Made by a program: the position numbers and the translations under genes
NCBI GenBank assembly: GCA_030524125.1
Contig: JAUNHB010000021.1
Location: forward strand, 1-37,286
Length of the DNA stretch: 37,286 nt
Source of the DNA: Eubacteriales bacterium
GTDB taxonomy: Bacteria; Bacillota; Clostridia; Lachnospirales; Lachnospiraceae
Direction: 5' to 3'
Shown here: positions 8,254 to 36,225 of the stretch, one piece after another
Position numbering within the stretch: the stretch's first letter is position 1
Layout: every line of letters begins with the position of its first letter
The notes under the pieces: generated by a model
The model's input: only the letters and a program-made list of their open reading frames with translations
Told to the model about the DNA's origin: nothing
Databases searched by the model: none

Positions 8254-8322
8254 CTTGTTCAGCCCGCGCCATTCGCAAAGCCGCGCTCCCCCTCCCGCCG
8301 CTTCCGGCCGGCTGAACTGTTA
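8254..8322 (+). repeat. Dispersed repeat copy A (shortest form)
   Basis: It opens TTGTTCAGCCCGCGCCATTC and closes GGCTGAACTGTT, the shared ends of the family found at 17671, 18963, 22380 and 36124. The middle is shortened and partly diverged (about 68 bp overall). It lies between the divergent regulator gene and the solute-binding protein operon. Confidence 0.8.
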
Positions 8323-8340
8323 TATGTCATTATAGCATGG

Positions 8341-8361
8341 AAATCTTTAAAATTCCTCTAA
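8341..8361 (-). promoter_or_regulatory. Candidate response-regulator direct repeat facing the regulator gene
   Basis: On the minus strand TTAGAGGAATT (8361-8351) is followed at once by TTAAAGATTT (8350-8341), giving two TTA(G/A)A(G/A) half-sites 11 bp apart. The motif resembles the perfect pair at 8389-8410 on the other strand. It could mediate autoregulation of the two-component genes. Confidence 0.5.
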
Positions 8362-8388
8362 AAGATGTATGGTTGAACCACAGCATGT

Positions 8389-8421
8389 TTAGAGAAAGAT
8401 TAGAGAAAGATCTGGTATGTT
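8389..8421 (+). promoter_or_regulatory. Perfect 11-bp direct repeat and -10 box of the binding-protein operon
   Basis: TTAGAGAAAGA occurs twice in direct succession (8389-8399 and 8400-8410), the one-turn spacing used by OmpR/PhoB-type dimers. Six bases downstream is TATGTT (8416-8421), with a TGG just before it as an extended -10. The repeats occupy the place of the -35 box, as in promoters that need an activator. The adjacent response regulator is the obvious candidate. Confidence 0.65.
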
Positions 8422-8485
8422 GTCTGTCGTAGGGAGCAGTTTCCCTTTATGAAAAAACAGAGGATGCAGGAAAGGAGCAAAGGAT

Positions 8486-10885
8486 ATGAATAGATGGAAA
8501 CGGGTCATGGCGATCCTGCTGGCGGCTTCCGCGGCGCTGTCCGGGTGCGGGAGCGGGGCCGGGCAGGAGAGCGGCAGGACGGGAGCAAAGGATACACAGA
8601 TGGGACGCTATATGGAGCAGGAGATCATGCTGCCGGAGGAGATCGCCCGGCAGTCGTACCCGGCGCTGACTCTTCAGACGATGGAAGACGGGAGTCTGAA
8701 GCTTGCGGAGGAGCAGGCGGGGATCTTTTTGTCGAAGGATCAGGGCGAGACATGGGAGCGGCAGGACGAGGCGTGGCTTTCCGATCTGGCGGAGACGGCG
8801 TATATTTCCACTCTGGCGCTGGCCCCCGACGGAGGAGCGGCGCTGGCCTACACGCCTTATGAGGAGGACGGTCAGGACGCCGATGCGGAGAGCGTCGAGA
8901 CACAAAAGACAGGCCCGGAGGAAGCCGCAGGCGCGGATGAGGGGAGCGCGGAGTCCGCCGCAGATCCGGACGGAGCGTTCTACTCAGAGGCCAGCTTTCA
9001 GCCGCAGTATCTGTATCGGTCGCCGGACGGGACGACGATCCCCATCACCTATGAGAACGGGGAAACATATTTTTATCAGCTCTGGTTCGGTCAGGACAAC
9101 CGCTTGTACGGGTGCAGTATCGGAGGAGGCGTTTTTTACATCGACCCGCAGACCGATACGGTAAAGCAGCTCTTTGAGATCGGAGGGCTTGTGGACTGCA
9201 TGGTCTTTACGGAGAAGCGCATGATCGCGTTTTCCACCCAGGAGACGGCGGTCTATGATCTGGAAAACGGAATGCTGGCGGAGCCGGACACGGCGCTGGA
9301 GCAATTTATGGGATCGACGCTCGAGGAGGCGGCCGGCCTGTCGGACGGCCATGCGGTGGTGGCCGCGGCCGGAGAAGGCGGCGACGTCTTTTATTTTGTC
9401 ACGGAAAAGGGGCTTTACCGCCATGCGGTGGGCGGACAGACTGTGGAACAGATCATCGATGGAAGCATCAATTCCATGGGAGATCCTATGACGTCCTTCG
9501 GCGGCATGGCGGTGCTGCCGGACGGGCAGTTTGCGGTACTCTACGAGGGCGGCAGGCTGTGCCGGTACATCTATGACGAGACCGTGTCCTCGGTGCCGGG
9601 GGAGCAGATCACCGTGTACAGCCTGGAGGACAGCTACACGATCCGGCAGGCTGTGAGCCTCTATCAGAAATCCCATCCGGACGTGTATGTGAAATACGAG
9701 ACGGGCATGAGCGGAACGGACGGCCAGACGGCGGAGGACGCCGTCAAAAATCTGAACGTAAGACTGGCCGCGGGGGAGGGGCCGGACATTCTTGTGCTGG
9801 ACGGACTTCCTATGGAGTCTTATATCGGGAAAGGGATTCTGGCGGACGTAAGCGGCATCGTGCGGCAGATGGACGGAGAGGACGCGCTTCTTGAAAATAT
9901 CGTCGGGGGCTCCGGGGAGGAGGACGGGACGATCCGCTATCTTCCGGTGTGCTTCCGGATCGTCATGACGGCGGGCGACCGTCAGACGGCGGAGCAGACG
10001 AGGAGCCTTTCTGATCTTGCGGACGCGGTGGAGAGACTCCGGCAGGAGCAGCCGGAGGGAAGCATTCTGGGACTGCGGTCTGCGGACGAGGTGATCCGCA
10101 TGCTGGGAGACGTCTGCAGAAACGCGTGGACGGCGCAGGACGGGCAGATCGATCAGGAAGCGCTGGCGGAATTTCTCCGCCTCGCCGCGCGCGTCTGGCA
10201 GGCGGAGCGCGAGGGCTATACGCAGGAGGAGCTGGAGCAGTATGAAGGAAATCAGGAGGCGTGGACGACGGATCTGGCGGGAGAGGGCGATTACTACAAA
10301 AATCTGTCCTCCGGCGCGGTAAATATGGCCATGGGACTCCAGAAGCTCGGCGTTGGTCTTGTGAAGGGAATGGACTTTGACTTCAACATTCTGGCCACGC
10401 TGTCGGAAAAGGAAGATGACTTTGCGTACGGTCCGTTTGAAGGGCAGGCGGGGAGCGTCTATCTGCCAAAGACCATGGCCGGTCTTGCGGCGGCGTCTGC
10501 GGACAACAAAACGGCGGCGGATTTCTACCGGTTTTTGTACAGCCGGGAATTTCAAAGCGCCGGGCTGGCGGAAGGTTTCCCGGTCAATGAGGCGGCCTTC
10601 GGGGAGTTGGAGAACAACCCGCGGGGGGAGGACAGCAGCGGAACCATCGCCATGGCCGCGGAAGGCTCCGAGGATCTGTTCCTGATGGATGTGAAATGGG
10701 CTCCGGGAGAAGATTTCCAGAGACTCGCAGAGATCGTGCGGGAAGCCGCGACTCCTTCTCTTGCGGACACGAACGTGGAGGAGGCGGTGTATGAGATCGG
10801 ACCGGCGGCGCTTGAGGGAACCGTGAGCGCGGAGGAAGCGGCGGAGCAGATCGCAAAGAAGGCGTCGCTTCCGCTGGCCGAGTGA
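8486..10885 (+). CDS. Lipoprotein: N-terminal propeller-like region fused to an ABC solute-binding domain
   Basis: The 799-residue product begins with a lipoprotein signal whose lipobox LSGC places the lipidated Cys at 21. Residues ~55-370 contain an Asp-box (SKDQGETW, 83-90) and repeated short beta-rich blocks such as LYRSPDGTTI and GGVFYIDPQTDTV, suggesting a sialidase-like or WD-like propeller. From ~373 (EQITVYSLEDSYTIRQAVSLY) to the end it matches the family 1 extracellular solute-binding fold, with GPDILVLDGLPMESYI typical of sugar- or oligosaccharide-binding proteins. ATG 8486 is preceded by AAAGGAG. Usual binding proteins are about 420-550 residues, so this is an unusual fusion. The GTGA overlap with the next permease shows coupling. 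The substrate is unknown. Confidence 0.85.
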   Translation: MNRWKRVMAILLAASAALSGCGSGAGQESGRTGAKDTQMGRYMEQEIMLPEEIARQSYPALTLQTMEDGSLKLAEEQAGIFLSKDQGETWERQDEAWLSDLAETAYISTLALAPDGGAALAYTPYEEDGQDADAESVETQKTGPEEAAGADEGSAESAADPDGAFYSEASFQPQYLYRSPDGTTIPITYENGETYFYQLWFGQDNRLYGCSIGGGVFYIDPQTDTVKQLFEIGGLVDCMVFTEKRMIAFSTQETAVYDLENGMLAEPDTALEQFMGSTLEEAAGLSDGHAVVAAAGEGGDVFYFVTEKGLYRHAVGGQTVEQIIDGSINSMGDPMTSFGGMAVLPDGQFAVLYEGGRLCRYIYDETVSSVPGEQITVYSLEDSYTIRQAVSLYQKSHPDVYVKYETGMSGTDGQTAEDAVKNLNVRLAAGEGPDILVLDGLPMESYIGKGILADVSGIVRQMDGEDALLENIVGGSGEEDGTIRYLPVCFRIVMTAGDRQTAEQTRSLSDLADAVERLRQEQPEGSILGLRSADEVIRMLGDVCRNAWTAQDGQIDQEALAEFLRLAARVWQAEREGYTQEELEQYEGNQEAWTTDLAGEGDYYKNLSSGAVNMAMGLQKLGVGLVKGMDFDFNILATLSEKEDDFAYGPFEGQAGSVYLPKTMAGLAAASADNKTAADFYRFLYSREFQSAGLAEGFPVNEAAFGELENNPRGEDSSGTIAMAAEGSEDLFLMDVKWAPGEDFQRLAEIVREAATPSLADTNVEEAVYEIGPAALEGTVSAEEAAEQIAKKASLPLAE

Positions 10886-11760
10886 GGAGGCGCAGGAGGG
10901 AGAGGCCGTCCCGCCGCCGGAAGGGAGCGAGGCCGGGGCGGATTCTCTTTCTTCTGCCAAGCCTTCTGGGAGTCGGTCTGTTCGTGCTGCTGCCCTTCGG
11001 GGATGTGGTGCGAAGGTCGTTCCTGACGGCGGTCACCGGCCGCTTTGCGGGGCTCTCCAATTACAGGACGGTATTTTCCAACGAGGCGTTCCGGCTGGCG
11101 GCGGGAAACACGCTGAAGTTCACGGCGGTGTGCGTGCCCCTGCTTGTGGGAGCGGGGCTTCTGCTGGCGGTGCAGATCGGAAAGGCTGCCCGCGGGGAGC
11201 TGATCCGGTCGCTGTATCTTCTGCCTATGGCGATCCCCGCGGCGGCGGTGGCGCTGTTCTGGAAAATGCTGTTTTCCGACCGGGGGCTTTGGAACGGATG
11301 GCTGTCGGCCCTCGCCGGGCAGACGGTGAGCCTCGACTATATGAACACGCAGGCGGCGTTCTGGGTGCTGGTGTTCAGCTATCTGTGGAAAAATCTCGGC
11401 TATACGGTGGTGCTCTGGATGGCGGGGCTTCACTGCGTGCCGAAGGAGCTGTGCGAAGCGGCGGGGATCGACGGCGCATCGGAGAGACAGTGCTTCTGGC
11501 GGGTCGTGTTCCCGAATCTGAAAGGGTCTCTCTACACGATCACGGTGCTGTCTTTTTTAAACGCCTTCAAGGTGTTCCGGGAGGCGTATCTGGTAGCGGG
11601 CTCCTACCCTCACGAGAGCATTTATTTGTTGCAGCACCTGTTCAACAACTGGTTTGTCCATCTGGAGCTCGACAAGCTGGCGGCGGCCGCCGTGTGCGTG
11701 AGCGTCTTTTTGCTGGCGTTCATTTTGTTGCTGCAGCGGCTGTGGGAAGGAGAGAATTGA
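10882..11760 (+). CDS. ABC transporter permease, MalF/UgpA type
   Basis: Inner-membrane permease of a binding-protein-dependent importer. The 292-residue product has about six hydrophobic segments and the cytoplasmic EAA loop EAAGIDGASERQCFWRVVFP, which docks the ATPase. The N-terminus is very arginine-rich. The GTG start at 10882 overlaps the binding-protein stop (GTGA), and the stop overlaps the next ATG (TGATG), so the three genes are tightly coupled. No ATPase gene is present; systems of this class in Firmicutes often share one MsmK/MsmX-like ATPase encoded elsewhere. Confidence 0.92.
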   Translation: MRRRRRERPSRRRKGARPGRILFLLPSLLGVGLFVLLPFGDVVRRSFLTAVTGRFAGLSNYRTVFSNEAFRLAAGNTLKFTAVCVPLLVGAGLLLAVQIGKAARGELIRSLYLLPMAIPAAAVALFWKMLFSDRGLWNGWLSALAGQTVSLDYMNTQAAFWVLVFSYLWKNLGYTVVLWMAGLHCVPKELCEAAGIDGASERQCFWRVVFPNLKGSLYTITVLSFLNAFKVFREAYLVAGSYPHESIYLLQHLFNNWFVHLELDKLAAAAVCVSVFLLAFILLLQRLWEGEN

Positions 11761-12656
11761 TGAATCATGCATGGAAATACAGAGTCCGGCGTCGGATGTC
11801 CGGCCTGAAAAGAGCGCTCCGGCGGCGCATGCTGACCGTGTGTCTCCTGCTGCTGGGGGCGGTGTTCTGCGCGCCGGTTTTGTACCTGCTGTCCGGCTCC
11901 GTCATGAGCCGCTATGAGCTGAAGCAAAGCCTGACGCCGCTCATGGCAGGGACGGACGGGTATGTGAGCTGGACGTTTTTGCCGGATTACCCGACTTTCG
12001 CTCACTGGGCGGGGCTTTTGTTCCGGACGCCGCAGTTTTTCACGGTATTCTGGAACTCGATGAAGCTGGCGGCGCTGATCCTGGCCGGACAGCTGGCGGC
12101 GGCGGTCCCGGCGGCGTGGGCTTTTGCGGTCTGCCGGTTCCGGTTCCGGAAGGCGCTGTTTTCGCTGTACATTGTGCTGATGCTCATGCCGTTTCAGGTG
12201 ACGATGCTCTCCAGCTATCTGGTGCTGAACGGGATGGGGCTTATGAATACGCACTGGGCGGTGATCCTTCCGGCTGCGTTTTCGACCTTTCCGGTATTTT
12301 TGATCTACCGGGGGTTCTGCGCTCTGCCGGCGGAGATCTTTGAGGCGGCCCGGATGGACGGGGCGGGAGAGTGGACGATCTTCTGGCGGATCGGCGTCCC
12401 GCTGTCCGCAGGCGGGATCCTGTCGGCCATGGTGCTGGGATTTCTGGAGTGCTGGAATATGATCGAGCAGCCGCTGGCTTTTCTGGAGGATCAGTCTCTC
12501 TGGCCGCTGTCTTTGTATCTGCCCCAGATCGATCTCGAGCAGGCCGGATATTCCTTTGCGGCCTCGGTGATCACGCTGATCCCGGCGATCTTCGTGTTTT
12601 TGCTGGGGAGAGAGTATCTGGAGCGGGGAATCGCGGCCTCGGCGCTGAAGGAGTGA
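11760..12656 (+). CDS. ABC transporter permease, MalG/UgpE type
   Basis: Second permease of the importer, 298 residues. It has an Arg-rich N-terminus, about six membrane segments and the EAA loop EAARMDGAGEWTIFWRIGVP. The start at 11760 is chosen because GGAAGGAG precedes it and it forms a TGATG junction with the previous gene; the frame is open upstream only as a shadow of that gene. It would form a heterodimer with the 10882 product. The strong GC bias and spacing match its neighbours. Confidence 0.92.
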   Translation: MNHAWKYRVRRRMSGLKRALRRRMLTVCLLLLGAVFCAPVLYLLSGSVMSRYELKQSLTPLMAGTDGYVSWTFLPDYPTFAHWAGLLFRTPQFFTVFWNSMKLAALILAGQLAAAVPAAWAFAVCRFRFRKALFSLYIVLMLMPFQVTMLSSYLVLNGMGLMNTHWAVILPAAFSTFPVFLIYRGFCALPAEIFEAARMDGAGEWTIFWRIGVPLSAGGILSAMVLGFLECWNMIEQPLAFLEDQSLWPLSLYLPQIDLEQAGYSFAASVITLIPAIFVFLLGREYLERGIAASALKE

Positions 12657-12675
12657 AGAAAGGAGCGGGGAACAG

Positions 12676-14331
12676 GTGGAATTTTGGAAATATCAGAAAA
12701 GGACGGGGACGGCGTTCGCATTCTTTCTGGCGTTTATGCTGCTTTGCACGCTGATCTCCCGTGCCGTCTACGCGTCGGGCCTGGCGCAGGTGACGGCGGA
12801 GACGCCGCGCCGCATGTCCCTGACGCACAAAGTCGAGGCGGAGGGCATAGTGAGCGCCGGGCAGGAGTATGCGCTGAGCGCGCCTCCGGGCGTCAGGGTG
12901 CGGACGGTCTGCATCCGCGAAGGAGACCGCGTGGCGGAGGGGACGCTCCTGTTTGAGGCGGACACGGACGATCTGGAGGAAAAGCTTCAGGAGCTTCGGC
13001 TCCAGATCCGGAAAGCGCAGCTTCAGCTCCAGGCGCTGGAGCAGACAGCTGCGCAGGACGCGCAGGAGAAGCAGACGGAGCAGAGCCGGGCTGCGGAGGA
13101 TTATGAGAGGACCGACAGGAGCACGAAGGAGAGCGTAAGCCGTGCGGAGGAAGATCTGCACGACGCCGAAAAGGCGCTGGAGCGGCTGGAGGAGTCGCCG
13201 GTATCGGTCACCCCGGAGAAGGAGCGAAAGGCCGCGCAGGCCGCTTACGAGCAGTGGGCCGCAAGAGAAACGGAATTAAAGGCGGCGTCGGAGCAGGCGG
13301 ACAGGTATCTTGCGGACGCGGAGGAGAAGATCAGGGAGGCCGAGGCGGCGCTTCAGGAGGCGCACGCCGCGGGGAAGGATACGGCCGGGGCGGAAGCCCG
13401 TCTGGCAGAAGCGAGAGCCTCCGGGGAGAGCGCGTCCAAAGCCGCCTCCGAAGCGAAAGCCGCCTGGGACGCACATGCGGCCAGCCCGGTGACAAAGCCG
13501 GACTATACGGCGGAGGACGAGGCGCTGGCCCAGTGGCGGGAGCGGCGGGAGGAGCTCCGGACGCAGGTCGGGACGGCCGAGCGGGCGGCGGCGGACGCAC
13601 AGCAGTCCCGCTCCGATTCCCTCCTTGAGGCGGAGCGCAAAAAGCAGGACGCCGCGTCCCCGGAGGCGGCGACTGCGGACGCGGAGACGGCACGGCTGGA
13701 GCTTCAGAGCCTGCAGGCGGACGCCGCCGGATATGCGGAGCTTCTGGAGGCGGACGGGCAGGTGCGCGCCGGGGAGGAGGGCGTCGTCACGAAGGTGCTG
13801 GTAAGCCCGGGCGAGCAGACCGGAGAGGGCGCGGCGGTCGTCTGTGCAGATCCTGCAAGTCCGCTTTTGTTTACCGTCTCCCTGACGAAGGAGCAGAAAA
13901 AATATGTCAATCAGGGAGATACGGCGACTCTGACGCTGGGAGGCAGCGCTTCGGAGGTCACAGTGGATTACCTGTCGGAGAACGAGGCGAATCCGCAGAC
14001 GTACGACGTCCGCGTGTTTCTGGAGGCGGGGGAGGGGACCATCGGCCAGAGCGGCGCCTTTTCGCTCACGGCGCAGTCGCAGACGTACGACTGCTGTATT
14101 CCTCTGGCGGCGCTTCGTCAGGATGAAAATCAGAGATCCTATGTGTACACGGTAGGAACGAGATCCGGGATCCTGGGAGAGGAGCTGTCGGCAGAGAAGA
14201 TCTATGTGACGGCGCTTGACAGGAATGAAAGCTACGCGGCCGTGGAGGCGGGGACGCTTAAGGACGTGCCGGTGATCAGCGACTCCACGGAGGAGCTGTC
14301 GGACCGGCAGATCATTCGTTATAAGGATTAG
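12676..14331 (+). CDS. HlyD-like membrane-fusion (adaptor) protein
   Basis: The 551-residue product has one N-terminal membrane segment (about residues 11-33), a first half-lipoyl motif (ALSAPPGVRVRTVCIREGD), a long Ala/Glu/Arg-rich alpha-helical hairpin (about residues 95-355), the second half-lipoyl motif (RAGEEGVVTKVLVSPGEQ) and a C-terminal beta-barrel. This is the plan of periplasmic adaptor proteins that in monoderms work with ABC exporters or tether extracellular partners. The GTG start at 12676 follows AAGGAGCGGGG. It is last in the operon, 19 nt after an importer permease; no exporter or ATPase is nearby, so its partner is unclear. Confidence 0.85.
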   Translation: MEFWKYQKRTGTAFAFFLAFMLLCTLISRAVYASGLAQVTAETPRRMSLTHKVEAEGIVSAGQEYALSAPPGVRVRTVCIREGDRVAEGTLLFEADTDDLEEKLQELRLQIRKAQLQLQALEQTAAQDAQEKQTEQSRAAEDYERTDRSTKESVSRAEEDLHDAEKALERLEESPVSVTPEKERKAAQAAYEQWAARETELKAASEQADRYLADAEEKIREAEAALQEAHAAGKDTAGAEARLAEARASGESASKAASEAKAAWDAHAASPVTKPDYTAEDEALAQWRERREELRTQVGTAERAAADAQQSRSDSLLEAERKKQDAASPEAATADAETARLELQSLQADAAGYAELLEADGQVRAGEEGVVTKVLVSPGEQTGEGAAVVCADPASPLLFTVSLTKEQKKYVNQGDTATLTLGGSASEVTVDYLSENEANPQTYDVRVFLEAGEGTIGQSGAFSLTAQSQTYDCCIPLAALRQDENQRSYVYTVGTRSGILGEELSAEKIYVTALDRNESYAAVEAGTLKDVPVISDSTEELSDRQIIRYKD

Positions 14332-14338
14332 AAAGGTC

Positions 14339-14360
14339 GTTAAGAATTTGTTAAGATTTA
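14339..14360 (+). promoter_or_regulatory. 11-bp direct repeat upstream of cstA
   Basis: GTTAAGA occurs at 14339-14345 and 14350-14356, an exact 11-bp period in an AT-rich stretch. This is the layout of PhoP/OmpR-type operators (TTAAGA-N5-TTAAGA). It begins 8 nt after the stop of the adaptor gene and about 40 nt before the -35 box at 14402. Its regulator is not known. Confidence 0.4.
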
Positions 14361-14401
14361 TAAAAAAAGACTGAAACAGAACGTTTGAACTTTATAAAAT
14401 A

Positions 14402-14430
14402 TTTACAATCTCCCCAAAAAAGTTTATATT
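14402..14430 (+). promoter_or_regulatory. Promoter of cstA
   Basis: TTTACA at 14402-14407, a 17-nt spacer and TATATT at 14425-14430. It gives an untranslated leader of about 130 nt, which contains a small hairpin (ATCCGG / CCGGAT near 14471-14488) but no recognisable riboswitch. Confidence 0.65.
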
Positions 14431-14565
14431 ATGTAGGACGAGTACGTGCAGTTGTCCGGACGGACGTCTTTGGATCCGGCTTTTCCGGATGTGAAACATC
14501 GGAGATTTCTCTGATGGAAAGACCCGGACGGCTGCAGGAAATTATAAAAGAGGGGAGAAAAGCAA

Positions 14566-16056: not shown

Positions 16057-16097
16057 AAAGAAAAAGGCTCCCGAAGGGGCCGCAGAAAGAAAACGAC

Positions 16098-16139
16098 AGG
16101 GCTGCGAAATGTGAGAGATCATGTTTCGCAGCCCTTTTT
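16098..16139 (+). terminator. Terminator after cstA
   Basis: AGGGCTGCGAAA (16098-16109) pairs with TTTCGCAGCCCT (16124-16135), 12 bp with a 14-nt loop, then a run of T. The opposite strand lacks a good T-tract, so it mainly serves the plus strand. Confidence 0.88.
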
Positions 16140-16140
16140 C

Positions 16141-16180: not shown

Positions 16181-16220
16181 AACGGCGCTCCGCGGGATCG
16201 CACTGCGGCGGATCCTGCGC

Positions 16221-18884: not shown

Positions 18885-18962
18885 GAAAAGAATACCTCCT
18901 CCTGTTATGTGGACTGCCGGGCCGCGGCCGCGGCAGCGCATGATTCCTGGCGTTGCCAGTGG

Positions 18963-19121
18963 CAGTTCAGCCCCGCGCTATTCGGGGAGCCGCGCCGACG
19001 CGCTCCCCGCCGCTTACGCGGCTACCTTTTCTTATGATCCGGCGCTCCCTCAGCCGAAAGCAGCAGATCAAAATTCGTGCGAGCACGATTCTGCTCAGCC
19101 GCTCCCGGCTGGCTGAACTGT
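18963..19121 (+). repeat. Dispersed repeat copy C (long form, about 159 bp)
   Basis: It opens CAGTTCAGCC and ends GGCTGAACTGT. Relative to the short form it carries an added block with its own hairpin (AAAATTCGTGC / GCACGATT). The 337-nt gap 18885-19221 holds the DUF362 ribosome binding site, this repeat and the PepSY terminator; I see no gene. Confidence 0.88.
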
Positions 19122-19157
19122 CATCATCACCTTGATGATACCACAAAAAAGAGGAAT

Positions 19158-22379: not shown

Positions 22380-22858
22380 GTAACCGTTCAGCCCGCGCCA
22401 TTCGCAAAGCCGCGCTGACGCGCTCTCCGCCGCTTACGCGGCTATCTTTGCTCATGAACTGGCGCTCCCTCAGCCGGAAGCAACAGGCCAAAATTCGTGC
22501 AAGCACGATTTTTGCCTGTCACTTCTGGCTGGCGGAATGTAGCCGTTCAGCCCGCGCCATTCGCAAAGCCGCGCTGCCGCGCTCCCCGCCGCTTCGCGGC
22601 TATCTTTGCTCATGAACTGGCGCTCCCTCAGCCGAAAGCAACAGGCCAAAATTCGTGCAAGCACGATTTTTGCCTGTCACTTCTGGCGGGCTAAATGTAA
22701 CCGTTCAGCCCGCGCCATTCGCAAAGCCGCGCTGCCGCGCTCTCCGCCGCTTCGCGGCTATCTTTGCTCATGAACTGGCGCTCCCTCAGCCGAAAGCAAC
22801 AGGCCAAAATTCGTGCAAGCACGATTTTGACCTGTCACTCCCGGCTGGCTGAACTGTT
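22380..22858 (+). repeat. Tandem array of three long repeat units (copies D, E, F)
   Basis: Three near-identical units start at about 22380, 22539 and 22697, with the shared GTTCAGCCCGCGCCATTCGC at 22386, 22545 and 22703, giving a period of 158-159 bp. Each has the inner block ACAGGCCAAAATTCGTGC / GCACGATTTTTGCCTGT, a hairpin. Only the last unit ends with the full GGCTGAACTGTT (22847-22858); the inner junctions read GGCGGAAT and GGGCTAAAT. A partial right end (GGCTGGCGGGATGTAACC) precedes the first unit. The 746-nt gap 22237-22982 holds this array and the promoter of the debranching gene; I see no credible gene. Confidence 0.93.
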
Positions 22859-22883
22859 GCGTCACACAGATTCTTTTTGACTG

Positions 22884-28457: not shown

Positions 28458-28469
28458 AGGAGAGTGCGT

Positions 28470-29960
28470 ATGAGAGCGGGAGGAATTTTGTTACCGGTCA
28501 GCAGCCTGCCGTCCAAATACGGGATCGGCTGCTTTTCAAAAGAAGCATATGATTTTGTGGATTTTCTCGTGAAGGCGGGGCAGCGGTACTGGCAGATCCT
28601 CCCGCTGGGCCCCACCAGCTACGGGGATTCGCCCTACCAATCCTTCTCCACCTTCGCCGGGAATCCCTATTTCATCGATCTGGAGGAGCTGATCGGGGAG
28701 GGCGTGCTGACCGAGGCGGAGTGCGCGGCGTGCGATTTCGGGAAGGACGCCCGGTCCGTGGACTACGGGAAGCTCTACGAGGCCCGCTATCCGCTTCTGC
28801 GCAGAGCTTACGAGCGAAGCCATGTGGAGTCGAACGAAGAGTTTCACGCGTTTCAGGAGCGGGAGCGGTACTGGCTTCTGGACTACGCCGTGTTCATGGC
28901 CGTCAAGGACCGCTTCGGCGGCAGGCCGTGGAACGAGTGGGCCGAGGACATCCGCCTGCGCTGGGGCTATGCGATGGAATATTATCAGCGGGAGCTCTAT
29001 TTCGAGATCGAGTTTTATCAGTACCTGCAGTACCTGTTCTTCCGTCAGTGGAGACGGCTCAAGGAATACGCCAACAGCCGCGGCGTCCGGATCATCGGGG
29101 ATATCCCGATCTATGTGGCCTACGACAGCGCGGACGCATGGGCCGGGCCGGAGCTGTTCCAGCTGGACGGAGACGGACTTCCCGCGTCGGTGGCGGGATG
29201 TCCGCCGGACGGCTTTTCGGCGACGGGGCAGCTGTGGGGAAATCCGCTGTACCGGTGGGAGCGGCACCGGGAGACGGGCTTTGACTGGTGGGTGCGCCGG
29301 ATCGCCAAATGCTTCGAGCTGTACGACATGGTGCGCATCGATCATTTTCGCGGATTCGACGAATATTATTCCATTCCCTACGGGGAGGAGACGGCGCAGA
29401 ACGGCCACTGGGAGCGCGGGCCGGGGATCGAGCTCTTCCACACGCTGAAGCGGCGGTTGGGAGAGCGGCCCATCATCGCGGAGGATCTGGGCTATATGAC
29501 GTCCACGGTGCGCCGGCTCGTGGAGGAGAGCGGGTATCCGGGCATGAAAGTGCTGGAGTTCGCCTTCGATTCGCGGGATTCCAGCGACGCCGGGGATTAC
29601 CTGCCCCACAACTATGTGAGAAACTGCGTGGCCTACACGGGAACACACGACAACGAGACGATCCTCGGGTGGCTCGGCAGCATCCTGCCGGAGGAAAAGC
29701 AGCATGTGCGGGACTATCTGGGGCGGCCCGACGACTCCAACCGGGAGCTCGCCTTCCAGCTTGTGCGGCTGGCGGCGTCCAGCGTGGCCGACCTGTGCGT
29801 CATCCCGCTGCAGGATTATCTGGGACTGGACAACCGGGCGAGGATCAACCAGCCGTCCACGCTGGGAAAAAACTGGAAGTGGAGAGTGGACAAGACGGCG
29901 CTTCAGGAGAGGACGGCGGAGACAATCCTCGGACTGATGCGTCTGTACGGAAGAATCTGA
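28470..29960 (+). CDS. malQ: 4-alpha-glucanotransferase (amylomaltase, GH77)
   Basis: Transfers alpha-1,4-glucan segments between malto-oligosaccharides in the cytoplasm, freeing glucose. The 496-residue product has the GH77 signatures MRAGGILLPVSSLPSKYGIG, DSPYQSFSTFAGNPYFIDL, RIDHFRG (nucleophile Asp), IIAEDLG (acid/base Glu) and THDNET (third acid). ATG 28470 fits AAAGGAG at 28456-28462; a GTG two codons upstream is less well spaced. It follows the permeases by 12 nt and would process the imported dextrins together with the debranching enzyme. Confidence 0.96.
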   Translation: MRAGGILLPVSSLPSKYGIGCFSKEAYDFVDFLVKAGQRYWQILPLGPTSYGDSPYQSFSTFAGNPYFIDLEELIGEGVLTEAECAACDFGKDARSVDYGKLYEARYPLLRRAYERSHVESNEEFHAFQERERYWLLDYAVFMAVKDRFGGRPWNEWAEDIRLRWGYAMEYYQRELYFEIEFYQYLQYLFFRQWRRLKEYANSRGVRIIGDIPIYVAYDSADAWAGPELFQLDGDGLPASVAGCPPDGFSATGQLWGNPLYRWERHRETGFDWWVRRIAKCFELYDMVRIDHFRGFDEYYSIPYGEETAQNGHWERGPGIELFHTLKRRLGERPIIAEDLGYMTSTVRRLVEESGYPGMKVLEFAFDSRDSSDAGDYLPHNYVRNCVAYTGTHDNETILGWLGSILPEEKQHVRDYLGRPDDSNRELAFQLVRLAASSVADLCVIPLQDYLGLDNRARINQPSTLGKNWKWRVDKTALQERTAETILGLMRLYGRI

Positions 29961-29981
29961 CGACAGCAGAGAGGAAATGGC

Positions 29982-31010
29982 ATGGGCGCGATTACGATCA
30001 AGGATATTGCAAAAATGTGCGGGGTAGGGGTCAGCACCGTATCCCGGGCGATGAACAATCACCCGGATATCAATCCGGAGACGAAGCAGATGATCATGGA
30101 GGCGATCGCGCGCCGCGGCTACATTCCGAACAACAGCGCGCGCAACCTCAAGCGGAGCGAGTCCGACACGATCGCCGTGCTGGTGAAGGGCATCGACAAC
30201 CCGTTTTTTCAGGGGATGTTCAAGGTGTTCGAGCAGCAGGTGCAGAAGACGAAATACTCCTTCATCATCCACCGGGTGGAGGAGCGGGAGGACGAGATCG
30301 CCGTGGCGCAGGCGCTGGAGCTGGAGAAACGGCTGAAGGGGATCATATTTCTGGGCGGCTGCTTCGGGGACGCCGGAGAACGAATGCGCCGGATGGACAT
30401 TCCGTTCGTGCTGTGCACGGTGGGCGTGCCGGACGGCGTGGACAAAAGCATCTATTCCGCTATCTCCGTGGACGACTGTAAGGAGAGCTACCGGCTGGTC
30501 CGCTATCTGTGCAGCCTCGGGCATCGGAGGATCGCCATCATCTGCGGAAAGGACGATGACGAGAGCATCGGAAAACTCCGGTACGAGGGGTATGTGCAGG
30601 CGCTGGAGGAGCAGGGGATCGAGGTCCTGCCGGAGCTGGTGCGCTACATGAAGCCGGAGCTCCCGGAATACTCGCCGGAGAACGGATACGCGGTGGCGAA
30701 GGAAATGCTGGAGGAGGGACTGGACTTTACGGCGCTCTACGTGGTGTCCGACAACACGGCCTTCGGGGCGTGCAAGGCCATCCTGGAGGCCGGGAAGCGG
30801 ATCCCGGAGGACTACTCGGTGGCGGCCTTCGACGGCATGAAGATGTCGCGCTACTACCATCCGTCCCTGACCACCATGAGCCAGCCCTGCGAGGAGATGG
30901 CGGCTGAGTCCATCCGCCTCCTGATCGATCTGATCGAGGGACGCAAGAAAAACCAGCAGAAAATCTTTCCGGCGAAGCTCGTGGAGGGCGAGTCGGTAAG
31001 GCGTCTGTGA
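29982..31010 (+). CDS. LacI-family transcriptional regulator of the maltodextrin locus
   Basis: The 342-residue product has the N-terminal LacI helix-turn-helix (TIKDIAKMCGVGVSTVSRAMN) and hinge (YIPNNSARNLK), then a periplasmic-binding-protein-like effector domain (IAVLVKGIDNPFFQGMFKV, SVDDCKESYRLVRYLCSLGHRRIAII, VAAFDGMKMS). It is last in the operon, 21 nt after malQ. The LacI-type palindromes at 25229-25265 are its probable site, giving induction by a sugar and feedback on its own gene. Confidence 0.93.
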   Translation: MGAITIKDIAKMCGVGVSTVSRAMNNHPDINPETKQMIMEAIARRGYIPNNSARNLKRSESDTIAVLVKGIDNPFFQGMFKVFEQQVQKTKYSFIIHRVEEREDEIAVAQALELEKRLKGIIFLGGCFGDAGERMRRMDIPFVLCTVGVPDGVDKSIYSAISVDDCKESYRLVRYLCSLGHRRIAIICGKDDDESIGKLRYEGYVQALEEQGIEVLPELVRYMKPELPEYSPENGYAVAKEMLEEGLDFTALYVVSDNTAFGACKAILEAGKRIPEDYSVAAFDGMKMSRYYHPSLTTMSQPCEEMAAESIRLLIDLIEGRKKNQQKIFPAKLVEGESVRRL

Positions 31011-31011
31011 G

Positions 31012-31056
31012 AGCGATCGGATATGGGAAAAAAATCTTCCCATATCCGGTCGCTTC
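31012..31056 (+). terminator. Long hairpin after the LacI gene
   Basis: AGCGATCGGATATGGGAA (31012-31029) pairs with TTCCCATATCCGGTCGCT (31037-31054), 18 bp with one U-G pair and a 7-nt A-rich loop. The following T-tract is poor (TCTGC), so termination may be partial. It begins 2 nt after the stop codon. Confidence 0.65.
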
Positions 31057-31097
31057 TGCATATGGTAAGGGAAAGAGCAGAGAAGGAATCTTGCAAT

Positions 31098-31628
31098 ATG
31101 ATGGAAGGAAGCTTTCAGAATTATACCGGAGGAAGAAGAGCGTCCTATATCTCCGTCAGCGGAGTGATCACGGAGATCGCGTCCGCCATAGGGCTGGGGT
31201 ACGGAGGATGCACGCAGATGATGACGGTGGAGGACGAGGAGGGAGGACTCACCAATTTTCTCGTGCACGGCTGTACCTGCGTGGCGGATCAGGAGAAGCT
31301 CTACGAGGGAATGTCGGTGACCGTGTATTACCGGAGCGATCCGGTGGCGGCTCTCGTCTACCCGCCCCGCTTCGCCGCGGCGGCGATCGTGCCGCAGGCG
31401 GAAGGGCGCATGTCGGCGGTGGCCTACTTCAATCAGGTGCTCATGGCGTCCGACCAGTCGCTGAAGCTGAACCTGTCCCCGGCCACCGAGGTCGTCACCT
31501 GCAACAACCAGTTCTTCCCCGGCAATCCGGGCGGACACGTGCTTCTGGTGCTTTACAGTCAGGCGACCAGAAGCAATCCGCCCCAGACGACTCCGGATAA
31601 GATCGTCGTGCTGTGCAATGAGCGGTAG
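31098..31628 (+). CDS. Conserved uncharacterised protein, OB-like
   Basis: The 176-residue product has no signal peptide. Its first half (SYISVSGVITEIASAIGLGYGGCTQMMTVEDEEGGLTNF...) has the strand pattern of an OB-like barrel, with a conserved-looking YPPRFAAA segment. The second half ends TRSNPPQTTPDKIVVLC. I recall similar unnamed proteins in other Clostridia, but cannot assign a function. ATG 31098 is preceded by GAAGGAA; upstream in-frame codons lie in the hairpin. It converges with the metallohydrolase gene, with 7 nt between stops. Confidence 0.7.
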   Translation: MMEGSFQNYTGGRRASYISVSGVITEIASAIGLGYGGCTQMMTVEDEEGGLTNFLVHGCTCVADQEKLYEGMSVTVYYRSDPVAALVYPPRFAAAAIVPQAEGRMSAVAYFNQVLMASDQSLKLNLSPATEVVTCNNQFFPGNPGGHVLLVLYSQATRSNPPQTTPDKIVVLCNER

Positions 31629-31635
31629 GTAGGGA

Positions 31636-33231
31636 TTAACGGTCCCACTTGTCGCACAGGGAATTGATCTGGCTGATGAATTTGGCCAGATCCTTGTTGG
31701 CGCCTCCCTCGTTGTGGCTGATCACCAGCAGGAGGCGCTTTCCGGCGTCCACCAGACGGGCGTACATGTCGGATTTGCGTCTGGCGGCGGGCTTCTCCGG
31801 GGAGACGGGGATCCGCTGCCCTTCCCTGATCCACACGCCTGCGGCCAGATCGTAGAGCGCGCCGGAAAACGGGGCGAAGGCCGGGATCTGATGCTCGTCG
31901 TTTAAGCAGGCCGTGAAGCTGTCGCATACCTCGTCCTCGCCGTGGACGACGAATACCTGGCTGGGCGTCGGGGAGAATGCCTTCACCCACCGGATGAGGC
32001 CGTCCTTGTCGGCGTGGCCGCTGATGCCGGGCAGAGCCGTGATCTCGGCCTTGACCTCGATGGTCTCGCCGAAGAGCTTCACGTACTGCGCGCCCTCGTT
32101 CAGCGCGCGGCCCAGCGTCCCGACGGCCTGAAAGCCCACGAAGAGCACCGTGCACTCGGGACGCCACAGATTATGCTTCAGATGATGCTTGATCCGTCCG
32201 GCTTCGCACATGCCGGAGGCGGAGATAATGACCTTCGGCTGGGCGTCAAAGTTGATGGCCTTGGACTCCTCGCTGGACACGGACAGATGCAGGTTCCGGA
32301 AACGGATCGGATTGACTCCCTCCCGGATGAGAGCCATGGCCTCCTCGTCGAAGCAGGACTGGAAATTCTTGCTGAAAATGGAGGTGGCCTCTATGGCCAG
32401 CGGGCTGTCCACGTAGACCGGAAAGTCGAAGTCCACCAGACGCCGCTCCTTGATGTCCCGGATAAAGTAGAGGAGCTCCTGCGTGCGCCCTACCGCGAAG
32501 GCCGGAATGACCAGATTTCCCCCGCGGGACAGGGTGCGCTGTATGACGGCTGCCAGCTCGGCGGCGTAGTCCGGCGGCGCGTTGTGGCAGCGGTCCCCGT
32601 AGGTGGACTCCATGATCACATAGTCCGCCGTATCCGTCGTCCGGGGATCCTTGATCAGAGGCTGGTTGATATTGCCGATATCCCCGGAAAACACAAGCTT
32701 TTTTGTGACGCCGCCTTCCGTGAGCCACAGCTCGATGGAGGCGGAGCCAAGCAGGTGCCCCACGTCGCGGAAGCGGGCCTCGACGCCCTCGCACACCGTG
32801 ATCCGCTGCTCGTAATCGCACGGGTGGAAAAGCTCGATGGCGCCCAGCGCGTCGGCCATGGTGTAGAGCGGCACGTACTCCTCCGCGCCGGATCGCTTGG
32901 CCTTCCGGTTGCGCCATTCGGCCTCAAATTCCTGGATGTGCGCGCTGTCCCGAAGCATGATGCTGCACAGGTCGCTGGTAGCGAAGGTGGAGATGATGCT
33001 GCCCTTGAAGCCGTTTTTATACAAAAGCGGCAGCCGCCCGGAGTGATCGATATGGGCGTGAGTCAGGAGAACATAGTCGATCAGATGGATGGGCACGGGA
33101 ATGTCCTGATTGACGTACGAGTCCTTTCCCTGCTCCAGCCCGCAGTCCACAAGAATGTGCTTTCCGCACGCTTCCACATAGTGACAGCTCCCCGTCACCT
33201 CATGATCTGCCCCCACAAAACCAAGCTTCAT
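31636..33231 (-). CDS. Beta-CASP metallo-beta-lactamase-fold RNA hydrolase
   Basis: The 531-residue product starts KLGFVGADHEVTGSCHYVE and has the zinc motif THAHIDHSG (His58, His60, Asp62, His63), the later ligand motif DVGHLLGSAS, FSGDIGN, and the beta-CASP part (VIPAFAVGRTQELLYFI, SASGMCEAGRIKHHLKH, ISGHADKDGLIRWV). Such proteins resemble the CPSF73/RNase J superfamily and cleave RNA. About 60 residues after the fold form an extra basic tail. AAGGGGG precedes ATG 33231. It is monocistronic. The RNA substrate is unknown. Confidence 0.92.
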   Translation of the reverse strand: MKLGFVGADHEVTGSCHYVEACGKHILVDCGLEQGKDSYVNQDIPVPIHLIDYVLLTHAHIDHSGRLPLLYKNGFKGSIISTFATSDLCSIMLRDSAHIQEFEAEWRNRKAKRSGAEEYVPLYTMADALGAIELFHPCDYEQRITVCEGVEARFRDVGHLLGSASIELWLTEGGVTKKLVFSGDIGNINQPLIKDPRTTDTADYVIMESTYGDRCHNAPPDYAAELAAVIQRTLSRGGNLVIPAFAVGRTQELLYFIRDIKERRLVDFDFPVYVDSPLAIEATSIFSKNFQSCFDEEAMALIREGVNPIRFRNLHLSVSSEESKAINFDAQPKVIISASGMCEAGRIKHHLKHNLWRPECTVLFVGFQAVGTLGRALNEGAQYVKLFGETIEVKAEITALPGISGHADKDGLIRWVKAFSPTPSQVFVVHGEDEVCDSFTACLNDEHQIPAFAPFSGALYDLAAGVWIREGQRIPVSPEKPAARRKSDMYARLVDAGKRLLLVISHNEGGANKDLAKFISQINSLCDKWDR

Positions 33232-33369
33232 AGAAAAACCCCCTTTTTCGATTTTTTAAAACCATAGCTCCGGCCGTCCGCATCCCCGCCCGGAGCAAAG
33301 ATCTGCATTTCTTAATATCATCATATCAACTTATGGAGGAATTTACAACTGAGAGAAGAAATCTTGTGG

Positions 33370-33399
33370 TTGAAAAGGATTTTAAGAGTGAGGTAGAAT
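33370..33399 (+). promoter_or_regulatory. Promoter module 1 of the AT-rich island
   Basis: TTGAAA (33370-33375), an 18-nt spacer, and TAGAAT (33394-33399). Spacer and flanks are nearly the same as those at 36239-36268 (shared GAGTGAGGTA(G/A)AAT(A/G)CAGATA). The two modules serve unrelated genes. Confidence 0.7.
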
Positions 33400-33458
33400 A
33401 CAGATAAGACGGCAGAGGCATAGTTTTACTGCGCGTCTGTCTTTTGGGGAGACGGAAC

Positions 33459-34394
33459 ATGAAATGGAGATATTTGAAAAGCGCAGTTTGTTCCCTGCTA
33501 TGCACAGCGCTGGTATTTTCCTGCATAAAAGGATATGGCGTCTACAAGGAACGAGAGTGGCTGAAAGGACAAACTTTCTTTCTGCATTCTGATCAGGGCC
33601 AATGGTATTCTTACAATCTTCTTGAGGGAATGAAACCAATACAGCTTCCGGAAGGGGTTCTCGACGGGAGTTTGCTGAAGAACGGAGAAACCTATGTGGG
33701 ACTGTACAAACAGGGAGAGCAGGTATCCATTGTGGAAGTCGACTGTGCTGCACAGACGATGGAGACGGTGGTTTGTGCGGAACAGCTGCAGGCGTGGCAC
33801 TGGACCACAGAGAAGATTGGAACCTTTCAATACCAACCGGGCACAGATGATATCAGTTTCCAGTATAAGGGCAAGATCTATCTCTGGCGCCGTGTCTCGG
33901 GGGAGCTTGTGCAGTTAGGCGTTGATGTCGCTTGGGCACCGTGTGTGGAGGATCGTTTTGCACCTCGATATACTTGGTTAAATGAGAATGAGGTTTGCTA
34001 CTCAGAAACAGAGGGGGGACAGGATTTATGGGTATATTACATGGATACGGGGAACGTACAGAAGTGGAAAAACGAGGGCCTGAGTATTTACTGCGAGGAT
34101 GGCACCGGGAATGAGATATGGACTATAAAAGCAGAACGTTCTGAGTTTTTGGTGTATATTCTTTCCTACGGGCTTTACTTCTATGACGCGGCGGAACAGA
34201 AAAATACGTTTGTGACCAGATTTTGGAAATATATGTTCGGAGGAATAAAAGACGGACAATGGCTTGCAGCAGCCTATGATATAAACGATCAGTATTGTGA
34301 AATTATGGTGGGGAATAAAACGGGCGAGCTTTTTTCCTTCATTCCCTCAGAATTGGAGGATATAGAAGGCAAAATTGATGAAATCACGTGGTGA
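33459..34394 (+). CDS. Uncharacterised membrane-anchored or exported protein
   Basis: The 311-residue product has an N-terminal hydrophobic segment (about residues 6-25) and a long, Tyr/Trp-rich beta pattern with repeated short blocks (QWYSYNLLEG, KIYLWRRVSG, DLWVYYMDTG, GLYFYDAAEQ), suggesting a propeller-like extracellular domain. I do not recognise a family. A Cys at 22 (VFSC) is a poor lipobox because of the Phe. ATG 33459 follows a GGGGAGACGG stretch. The gene is AT-richer than its upstream neighbours and has its own promoter module, marking the start of an accessory region. Confidence 0.75.
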   Translation: MKWRYLKSAVCSLLCTALVFSCIKGYGVYKEREWLKGQTFFLHSDQGQWYSYNLLEGMKPIQLPEGVLDGSLLKNGETYVGLYKQGEQVSIVEVDCAAQTMETVVCAEQLQAWHWTTEKIGTFQYQPGTDDISFQYKGKIYLWRRVSGELVQLGVDVAWAPCVEDRFAPRYTWLNENEVCYSETEGGQDLWVYYMDTGNVQKWKNEGLSIYCEDGTGNEIWTIKAERSEFLVYILSYGLYFYDAAEQKNTFVTRFWKYMFGGIKDGQWLAAAYDINDQYCEIMVGNKTGELFSFIPSELEDIEGKIDEITW

Positions 34395-34433
34395 GAAAAG
34401 GGGAAAAGAGGATGTCTGATCAAGGGTCTTTTC

Positions 34434-34777
34434 CTAGATAATAAAAAGTTTCTTACCGTCCTCGGCAGTCAGTTTCAACTGCTTACAATTTGTAGTCAGT
34501 TGACTTCCTTCCTTTTTTAGCCGCACTTTCAGCACGCTCCAATATTTTGCGGCATGGCGAACGTCAGGCTGATCTGTCAGTACGGAAACCACGTCCACAA
34601 TAGAAAACAGCCATTCTTCCTGTTCCTCATCCCATGCTGTACCATGTACATCATAGCGCAAACGACAGGAAAAAGCCACTTGTTTTCTGGCATATGCGGC
34701 ATATCCAAATCTTCAAGGAGCTTGCCGTTTTTCGCTGCCCGTTCGCGCTGTGCTTCCCGCACAGTAAATTTATCCAA
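34434..34777 (-). pseudogene. Frameshifted, truncated Bro-N-like gene after yefM
   Basis: A TTG start at 34777, with GGAGG 8 nt upstream and overlapping the yefM stop, opens a frame (MDKFTVREAQRERAAKNGK...) that ends at 34577. The frame one base over (to 34434) continues DVHGTAWDEEQEEWLFSIVDVVSV and VLKVRLKKEGSQLTTNCKQL, recognisable as the N-terminal part of Bro-N-type phage antirepressor-like proteins. Adding one T in the run near 34675-34679 joins the two frames (ENKWLFSCRLRYDVHG). The product then stops after about 115 residues, short of family length. It is probably a decayed gene, or an assembly error in a T run. Confidence 0.6.
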
Positions 34778-35033
34778 AGTGTTTCCTCCGTAAAGAGGAA
34801 AGTGTTTCGCGCGCGTCCAACAAAACGCCGTCAGCTGCAAATTCCTTTTCCGCTTCGCTGATGGCTGCGTCTGTCCGTGCCGTTTCTATCATTTCTTCGT
34901 ATGCTTCAATACTCATCACCACTAAATCCCCATAACCGTTTTTTGTAATAAAAATCGGTTCGCGTCTTGCGTGGCAAAGCTCGGAAATCTCCGAGGTGTT
35001 TCTGAGGTCTGTAATCGGTCTGATCTGTGGCAT
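34770..35033 (-). CDS. YefM/Phd-family antitoxin
   Basis: The 87-residue product has the Phd/YefM fold signature: ITDLRNTSEISELCHARREPIFITKNGYGDLVVMSIEAYEEM, followed by a disordered acidic C-terminus that normally wraps the toxin. GGGAGG precedes ATG 35033. A RelE/YoeB toxin would be expected directly downstream, but only the broken Bro-N-like gene is there, so this is an orphan or re-purposed antitoxin. A TGTACA site in its promoter fits autorepression. Confidence 0.88.
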   Translation of the reverse strand: MPQIRPITDLRNTSEISELCHARREPIFITKNGYGDLVVMSIEAYEEMIETARTDAAISEAEKEFAADGVLLDARETLSSLRRKHFG

Positions 35034-35060
35034 ATATTTACGCCTCCCTTTTTGTATAGA

Positions 35061-35089
35061 ATTATAGCGGAATTATGTACAAAATGTAA
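35061..35089 (-). promoter_or_regulatory. Promoter and YefM-type operator
   Basis: On the minus strand TTACAT (35089-35084), a 17-nt spacer and TATAAT (35066-35061). TGTACA, the known core of YefM-YoeB operators in E. coli, sits in the spacer at 35076-35081. Confidence 0.65.
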
Positions 35090-35118
35090 GGTTGTTATAC
35101 AGATAAAAAATTTAAACA

Positions 35119-35206
35119 CCAGAAATTGTTTTGTCTTCTCATATAGTATCATGCTGTGGTAAACTGGAAGCGGAAACAGGTTTTGCTATATAGACATATT
35201 ACAGCA
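35119..35206 (+). pseudogene. Remnant of a DUF4279 gene (3' end only)
   Basis: This stretch is closely similar at nucleotide level to 36638-36725, the 3' end of the DUF4279 gene. It reads PEIVLSSHIVSCCGKLEAE then drifts into a stop, against PEIVLSSRIVSYFGELEAE in the intact gene. Nothing upstream of it resembles the rest of that gene. It is a scar of an earlier duplication or recombination. Confidence 0.85.
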
Positions 35207-35231
35207 AAGGGATTCAAAAAACGAGGATGCG

Positions 35232-35563
35232 ATGAAAACAGCCGGGCTTATTCTACTAATATTTTTTGTTTGCTGACAGGGATTTTCTATTTGACAGCGC
35301 TTGCGATCTCAGTCAGAAAAGGCTGCTTTTTCTTAAAGATAATGGATCAATATAATCCGGAAATAATGAAGCAATATCGACTGTCTTCGGATCTGCGTAA
35401 AGTGAAAAAGTTGAATCAGAGACTAAAGGAACTAAAGGCGGACTGTCCGCCGATCGTGGCGGAGGCGATCGCACAGAGAGATCTGATCAAACCGAGTGTG
35501 AATTTCCAGTTTAGGATCATAGTGTGCACGACGCTGATGCTGTTTCCGGACAGATTGTATTAA
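35232..35563 (+). pseudogene. Small membrane protein gene with a frameshift in a T run
   Basis: ATG 35232 with GAGG 7 nt upstream gives MKTAGLILLIFFVC then a stop at 35274. The frame one base over continues LLTGIFYLTALAISVRKGCFF and then a charged tail to 35563. Adding one T in the TTTTTT run (about 35261-35266) joins them into a single transmembrane helix followed by a cytoplasmic tail (QYRLSSDLRKVKKLNQRLKELK), about 110 residues. So the original gene was probably a single-pass membrane protein of unknown role. It may be a real mutation, a phase-variable tract or an assembly error. Confidence 0.55.
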
Positions 35564-35583
35564 GCGGTGCAAGAGGTGATGAG

Positions 35584-36114
35584 TTGAACTTTTATATTCA
35601 GGCAGGCAATCCCAGATTTCAAGAAATTACAAATGTTTATGATGAAAGTCTATCCGATGCCATAGAAAGCGTTTTTCCATTAAATACGGAAAATGCTATA
35701 TTAGTATGGAATCATATATGTGTTCCGTTATCCTACAAATATGACATAAGCTATATGATGGAAGATATTTTACAGTTATTAGACAAATTACAGAATAAGG
35801 AAAAAGGAGAATTACGGATCAACTGGCTTCCAGATACTTTCAGATGTGATTGGTTCATCAAGTGGAATACTGAAGAAATAAAAATTCAATCGCGATGGGA
35901 ATGTACAGTTGGAGATTTGGAGAATATTTTAAATCAGAGGCCTAATGTAGAACTATCAAAACAAGTTTTTATCAATGAATGGAAAAGCGTTCTGGGTATT
36001 GTGATCGAAGGACTGAAAGGCTGTGGTTATAGTGAGAATGAAATACGGCATATGGATCAGTTAATAGAACGATTTGAGAGTATGAAGGAAGATGGACAGC
36101 TGTATAAAAGGTGA
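35584..36114 (+). CDS. Uncharacterised small protein, possibly immunity-type
   Basis: The 176-residue product is soluble and acidic, with no signal peptide. It contains AILVWNHICVPLSYKYDISYM, LRINWLPDTFRCDWFIKW and an amphipathic C-terminus. I do not recognise a family. TTG 35584 is chosen because AAGAGGTGA (about 35569-35577) precedes it; a GTG at 35524 would add 20 residues without a ribosome binding site. The AT-rich composition and the neighbours (DUF4279, broken genes) suggest an immunity or accessory gene, which is inference only. Confidence 0.65.
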   Translation: MNFYIQAGNPRFQEITNVYDESLSDAIESVFPLNTENAILVWNHICVPLSYKYDISYMMEDILQLLDKLQNKEKGELRINWLPDTFRCDWFIKWNTEEIKIQSRWECTVGDLENILNQRPNVELSKQVFINEWKSVLGIVIEGLKGCGYSENEIRHMDQLIERFESMKEDGQLYKR

Positions 36115-36123
36115 TTTATTGGA

Positions 36124-36225
36124 ACAGTTCAGCCAGCCGGGAGGGACAGATCATGGGCAAAGATAGCCGCGTGAGCGGCGGGAAGCGCGTCAGCGTGGCT
36201 TTGCGGACGGCGCGGGCTGAACTGT
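36124..36225 (-). repeat. Dispersed repeat copy G (short form, 102 bp, inverted)
   Basis: ACAGTTCAGCC (36124-36134) and GGCTGAACTGT (36215-36225) are perfect inverted ends. Read on the minus strand, it matches copy B along its whole length. It starts 10 nt after the stop of the preceding gene and ends 14 nt before promoter module 2. Confidence 0.92.

Follow-up and report, generated by a model that had tools for sequence, protein, structure and literature searches.

Repeat copies in the window and beyond

The window, by which we mean the whole 37,286-nucleotide stretch of DNA analysed here, holds genes of ordinary families and seven copies of a short repeat (Table 1). A Pfam scan of ten neighbouring window proteins gave matches for eight, to families such as response regulators, solute-binding protein, PepSY and alpha-amylase domains; none of the ten matches a transposase family, in agreement with an earlier, sequence-only reading of this DNA. 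That reading had placed copies at 8254, 17671, 18963, 22380, 22539, 22697 and 36124, and all seven sites are occupied, six in the + and one in the - orientation, both orientations having been claimed. Measured from one inner end motif to the other, its three size classes of about 68, 101 and 158 bp come to 67, 101-102 and about 158 bases. The common ends that it described hold only in approximate form, with exact ACAGTTCAGCC at two places and exact GGCTGAACTGT at four, the remaining ends carrying substitutions.

Table 1. Repeat copies and structural features in the window. Copies are oriented as in the sequence-only reading; P1, P2 and P3 are parts of the fold described in the text.
Feature	Position	Strand	Inferred RNA strand	Remark
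Short worn copy	8251..8323	+	-	P3 lost entirely, P2 for the most part
Copy without long hairpin P3	17668..17774	+	-	
Full-length copy, worn ends	18959..19124	+	-	limits from sequence reading
Array unit 1, head-to-tail	22380..22537	+	-	
Array unit 2	22539..22695	+	-	
Array unit 3	22697..22860	+	-	best full-length copy; query and fold reference
RF01699 (Clostridiales-1) match	22704..22853	-		model 1-166 of 166; 37.7 bits, gathering score of 48 not reached
Stem P1, left half	22697..22709	.		inverted repeat end; paired with 22848-22860
Stem P1, right half	22848..22860	.		inverted repeat end
GAAU (RNA strand)	22717..22720	-		one side of tandem-GA internal loop, arm P2
AUGA (RNA strand)	22768..22771	-		opposite side of tandem-GA internal loop
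Long hairpin P3	22787..22847	-		paired; sequence varying between lineages
CUUG (RNA strand)	22816..22819	-		terminal loop of P3
Inverted copy without P3	36121..36228	-	+	

The complete form of the element is about 164 bp long, with GTAACAGTTCAGCC at one end and GGCTGAACTGTTAC at the other, and full copies reach a few bases beyond the ends noted earlier on each side (GTAAC...GTTAC); the window copies are worn relative to it. Those at 22380, 22539 and 22697 constitute a single head-to-tail array with a period of 158-159 bp (22380-22860). Two CTCCC repeats flank P3 on sequence reading, and the middle-sized copies lack this long hairpin just as a deletion between the repeats would leave them. Two pairs of duplicated stretches, 84-85% alike, are also present in the window (33360-33406 with 36229-36275, and 35119-35207 with 36638-36726); the stretch at 36229-36275 directly abuts the inverted copy on its outer side (36228), and its counterpart at 33360 has no element before it.

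Copies are found genome-wide on many contigs, which confirms the claim of a dispersed family and rules out limitation to the window or to a single duplicated segment. In the draft genome of the source organism (2.39 Mb, 95 contigs, 80% complete), BLAST recovers 44 copies with 135-163 aligned bases and 87-100% identity on many contigs, together with fragments. The end motif, allowing one mismatch, occurs at 96+95 = 191 places, compared with 1+5 = 6 for a reversed control, and a covariance model that we built gives at least 90 matches at E <= 1e-5 from at most 150 scored candidates. Most copies are intergenic, some are short of internal parts and others stand in head-to-tail arrays. Relatives of the element occur in one of 16 congeners, and across the wider bacterial family at least 25 of 397 genomes give a match, the source genome included (E <= 1e-10, with at most two candidates scored per genome); named carriers among the matches listed are Catenibacillus scindens DSM 106146, in which the covariance model has at least 43 hits, and metagenome-assembled genomes labelled Acetatifactor, Roseburia and Lachnospira. 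Copies in the congener G014 (L031-L037) have the ends GTTCAC/GTGAAC in place of GTTCAG/CTGAAC, a joint change in the two arms of the inverted repeat. Neither IMG/VR nor the plasmids searched held an exact 20-mer match to the element. Partial matches, over 30-55% of the query, were seen in MT835743.1 and six other unannotated human-faecal records that are labelled phage and may be bacterial contamination.

Target duplications, an empty site and transposase candidates

Both ends are present within two mismatches in 143 elements, including four of the seven window copies. Of the 143 elements, 124 are 150-172 nt long, and 42 of the latter, less than 85% alike, served as representatives. The eight bases before GTAACAG agree with the eight after CTGTTAC at a level of 0.448, against 0.294 in shuffled pairings (z 12.3, n=143), and the signal is sharpest at exactly 8 bp, the z values for 7 and 9 bp being 3.7 and 2.6. 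Flanking octamers match at seven or eight of eight bases in 29 of the 143 copies, where shuffles give 0.57, and at five or fewer in 109, which is what a family with many old copies should show; A+T makes up 78% of the duplicated octamers. The earlier statement that no target duplication is visible thus stands for the four window copies that our script could pair (1, 3, 3 and 4 of 8 bases) and fails for the family.

One copy in the source genome (L018), whose flanking octamers match at 7 of 8 bases, lies between two genes whose translations suggest an amino-acid ABC permease and the binding protein that goes with it. The region is matched in 15 of the 16 congeners, with a gap of 71-133 nt compared with 275 in the source genome and no copy in any of the 15. 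Joined with a single octamer, the flanks of L018 align best to G014; since the intergenic sequence has diverged and the comparison is at species level, the exact empty site is clear in the closest relative only. Empty sites in related strains had been proposed as a check on the family, and the site of one copy lacks the element in congeneric species (species being compared, not strains). The family is a transposable element, a conclusion that the sequence-only reading had missed; the miniature transposon-like element that it listed as one option is borne out by the sharp 8-bp signal and the element-free site in congeners.

Given the inverted GTAACAGTTCAGCC ends and target duplications of 8 bp, the transposase makes an 8-bp staggered cut. 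No transposase gene with the ends of the element was present around the loci examined, which cover parts of genomes, so that absence is no proof. Transposons of the IS66 group are described in print with GTAA tips and 8-bp duplications (PMC11946415), both of which the element shares. It differs in having no coding sequence and in an inverted repeat that beyond GTAA matches none of the few IS66 loci examined. One of the loci (L149:15-2695, G278) is an intact IS66-type element with GTAA ends, 20 of 20 inverted-repeat bases matching (GTAAGTAGGAAATAATCCGT) and an 8 of 8 duplication. The IS66 domain (PF03050) has no match in the 80%-complete source draft and matches in only 9 of 25 other carrier genomes, and at none of seven IS66 loci is the gene enclosed by paired ends of the element type. 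The IS66 link is accordingly a lead, and not an assignment of membership.

Another of the earlier proposals was a REP-type element, which would depend on a Y1 (RAYT) transposase, and high copy number, hairpin-rich sequence, intergenic placement and tandem arrays all suit it. It is contradicted by duplications of a fixed 8 bp, and a search for the RAYT domain (PF01797) gave no match, and hence no Y1 transposase homologue, in the 80%-complete draft; we reject this identity and consider that it has scarcely any probability left. Transposition by Y1 enzymes is not known to leave duplications of a fixed 8 bp. BOX elements of pneumococcus and REP/BIME arrays are likewise high-copy, hairpin-rich, modular intergenic repeats; compared by description, our element resembles them in all four respects and is set apart by its clear duplications and by the lack of any Y1 transposase found.

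A conserved fold and its strand

The interior of the element is a conserved, covarying three-way junction, which the sequence-only reading had missed. Its stem P1 is formed by the terminal inverted repeats, whose pairs are kept in 88% of cells across the 42 representatives; arm P2 bears two small hairpins and a tandem-GA internal loop, and the long hairpin P3 is closed by a CUYG loop, a classic class of RNA tetraloop. In the 61-pair structure, 83% of pairs are standard in the 42 representatives and double changes occur in 41 of the 61 pairs, although the structure is favoured in part on this percentage, the 61 pairs having been derived from the fold of one member. The covariation score of the same copies is 0.275, against 0.119 when shuffled and 0.069-0.107 when slid. 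The sequence of P3 differs widely between lineages, and in all 124 copies its arms have a lower folding energy than 20 simple shuffles of them give on average, with a mean of -31.1 compared with -13.2 kcal/mol. A kink-turn was considered for the internal loop and rejected: in a canonical copy of Clostridiales-1, the RNA family discussed below, the tandem-GA loop is symmetric and has no bulge, and we therefore limit the claim to 'tandem GA'.

The strand on which the fold is constrained was assessed by counting mismatches between the two arms of the hairpin, aligned under a scoring scheme neutral to strand, both arms being obtained in 122 of the 124 copies and 40 of the 42 representatives. Read on the strand opposite to that of the sequence-only reading, the 122 copies contain 185 G.U against 44 A.C mismatches and 147 purine-purine against 29 pyrimidine-pyrimidine mismatches. 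Related copies are not independent, which makes the representatives the better measure, and these indicate the same strand (G.U 41 to A.C 19, p 0.006; purine-purine 68 to pyrimidine-pyrimidine 13, p 4e-10). The RNA family Clostridiales-1, whose strand is set by Rfam, served as positive control and gave ratios of 20:6 and 127:2 respectively. On the same opposite strand, the fold is better in 116 of the 124 copies, reaching -93.4 kcal/mol for the window copy compared with -78.8 on the other; a CUUG or CUCG loop is present in 98 of the 124, and AUGAGCAA and UUUGCGAAU are both exact in 112. G.A pairs are frequent in RNA loops. The body of the element is thus shown to be constrained to fold, and the constrained strand displays the mismatch pattern of RNA; the mismatch test overturns the strand of the sequence-only reading as the RNA strand.

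The same mobile element could instead owe its fold to a role as DNA, if the transposase acts on its hairpins or cruciforms or if repair keeps them palindromic, any RNA then being incidental. Inverted ends that belong to the fold, a fold that is stable with DNA parameters too (z -6.3) and the lack of any orientation bias relative to genes are all consistent with such a role. A symmetric DNA palindrome, however, predicts no strand preference for purine-purine and G.U mismatches, and deamination alone fails to explain the transversions; the CUYG loop and tandem-GA motif lie on the RNA strand, and canonical Clostridiales-1 shows this asymmetry too. We judge a fold maintained as DNA to be unlikely, while still giving it some weight.

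A further possibility, of the kind put forward for ERIC and Correia/NEMIS, is that the mobile element acts in cis on mRNA, where its RNA fold would set mRNA stability or insulate neighbouring genes; such roles are reported for other miniature elements (PMC10969869, PMC2229807). Copies are mainly intergenic, and one lies inside a conserved operon, between two genes. The neighbours were called with a custom gene caller for 93 of the 143 copies; seven overlap a called gene, and the copies outside the test have loci that were uncalled or that lack a neighbour. Among the 93, 70 are in tandem, 18 in divergent and 5 in convergent contexts, where about 71, 16 and 6 are expected from intergenic length, and in tandem contexts 28 copies are codirectional and 42 antisense (p 0.12). 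With no orientation bias towards genes there is no direct sign of transcription of the RNA strand, and neighbourhoods that follow intergenic length, with these orientation counts, argue against a role in adjacent mRNA. Intrinsic terminators, suggested by L018 as the usual insertion site, are not preferred: 3 of 34 copies lie within 4 nt of one, compared with 35 of 600 random intergenic sites (p 0.45), and two other distances gave p 0.56 and 1. We regard the cis-acting role as improbable, and a separate RNA, or use during movement, as the likelier putative target of selection. The earlier suggestion of structured RNA parts of mRNA ends is accordingly upheld for the structured RNA, through covariation, strand-specific mismatches and similarity to Clostridiales-1, albeit on the opposite strand, and not for the mRNA ends, given the orientation counts and the spread with intergenic length.

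Taken jointly, the repeats are probably intact and decayed copies of a non-autonomous DNA transposon, or MITE, of Lachnospiraceae-type bacteria with a folded RNA interior. Such a MITE would be moved in trans by a DDE transposase, most likely IS66-like; read-through from neighbours would give transcripts of some copies, and the folded product might serve the element or the host as an RNA in its own right instead of controlling adjacent genes, this last step being the least certain. MITEs with folded transcripts are already known (PMC2229807, PMC10969869). Correia/NEMIS, ERIC and RUP are, like the present element, short and intergenic, with inverted ends, duplications and a stable fold; compared by description, they are mostly stem-loops closed by their ends, whereas the fold here is multi-branched, is maintained from genus to genus by covariation and has a relative among the catalogued RNA families. 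The question raised is why a small DNA transposon retains a conserved RNA fold; if the RNA aids transposition or tolerance by the host, this would be unusual for a bacterial element so small.

Relation to Clostridiales-1

Clostridiales-1 (RF01699) is an RNA family catalogued by Weinberg et al. in 2010 (PMC2864571), whose main text gives no function for it and does not contain the words 'transposon', 'transposable' or 'mobile'. At the Rfam gathering cut-off nothing in the window is matched and the seven loci scanned yield only two tRNAs. A permissive scan aligns the window copy to the full length of RF01699 on the RNA strand (E 3e-7 for 181 bases), short of the cut-off (scores in Table 1), and matches below the cut-off occur at 8 of 15 further loci. 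The source genome contains eight copies above the cut-off (76 to 124.8 bits), all outside the window, and 41 below it (at most 45.5 bits), with a clear gap between; the 41 are mostly of the window type by position, with at least one exception (L210). Five of the eight canonical copies stand in head-to-tail arrays, of three (C66:2423-2921) and two (C49:39831-40155).

The two types have in common the full-length alignment on the RNA strand, a closing stem, a CUUG-capped hairpin, an aUGAGcA/UGCGAAu internal loop and high copy number in the same genomes. They differ in that window-type copies in the source genome score at most 45.5 of the 48 bits and are without the last hairpin of the model (about 34 nt); our fold does not contain it, and of three alignments displayed two have it deleted and one retains it with poor pairing. 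RF01699 matches at least 215 of 397 genomes of the bacterial family, at least 177 of them above the cut-off, and at least 16 of 391 genomes of the class, 12 of these from the same family; at most seven candidates were scored per genome for both counts.

Canonical copies also have direct repeats outside inverted ends. Of 30 canonical loci in other genomes, 27 lie away from contig edges, and in 21 of these the sequence extends past the Rfam model into a recognisable right end that mirrors the left (TGATRCCAGGGTCAAAAG). Exact direct repeats of six or seven bases stand outside these ends in 12 of the 21, against 0.77 in shuffled pairings; the eight canonical copies of the source genome show no obvious duplication by eye. 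The canonical ends, with 6-7 bp duplications, are distinct from the GTAACAGTTCAGCC ends and 8-bp duplications of the window type. Direct repeats outside mirrored ends imply that Clostridiales-1 itself seems to ride on transposons, and suggest that this unexplained RNA spreads by transposition. Clostridiales-1 appears to be part of transposable elements, which would account for its copy number and scatter and, if true, would be a caution against counting it as an sRNA gene in annotation. In the openly licensed literature we found nothing that links Clostridiales-1 to transposition or mobility (PMC2864571 being covered by its main text), no report of a below-cut-off relative as a high-copy element and none of one RNA design between different transposon ends.

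A more speculative reading, which we hold to be doubtful, would make Clostridiales-1 and its kin a single superfamily of selfish structured RNAs carried in several transposon shells, the RNA being kept rather than the ends and being active in the spread of the element. The common RNA design would comprise an inverted-repeat stem, a CUYG-capped hairpin and a tandem-GA arm, and the shells would differ in cut length, with 8 bp both in the window type and in a second core, 6-7 bp in canonical Clostridiales-1 and perhaps TA in a third. Two further classes of element in the source genome support, and do not prove, an RNA design common to several shells.

Class C was observed at L238:443-615 (G000 C29) and at least six more places (L237, L017, L234, L030, L022 and L028). 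It has GTAACAGTTCAGCC ends as in the window type, another core with a CUUG-capped hairpin and, on reading of the sequence, a tandem-GA arrangement; the duplication is 8 of 8 in L238, and none of the other six shown is perfect. Class B, with ends like GTTACGATTCA, was observed at L227:569-767 (G000 C78) and L232:3525-3722 (G000 C33), where it interrupts two copies of the window type, each on its own contig, at the identical point. The interrupted sequence is continuous if TA is counted as the duplicated target, on our reading, and the composite of class B and window type may have moved as a unit.
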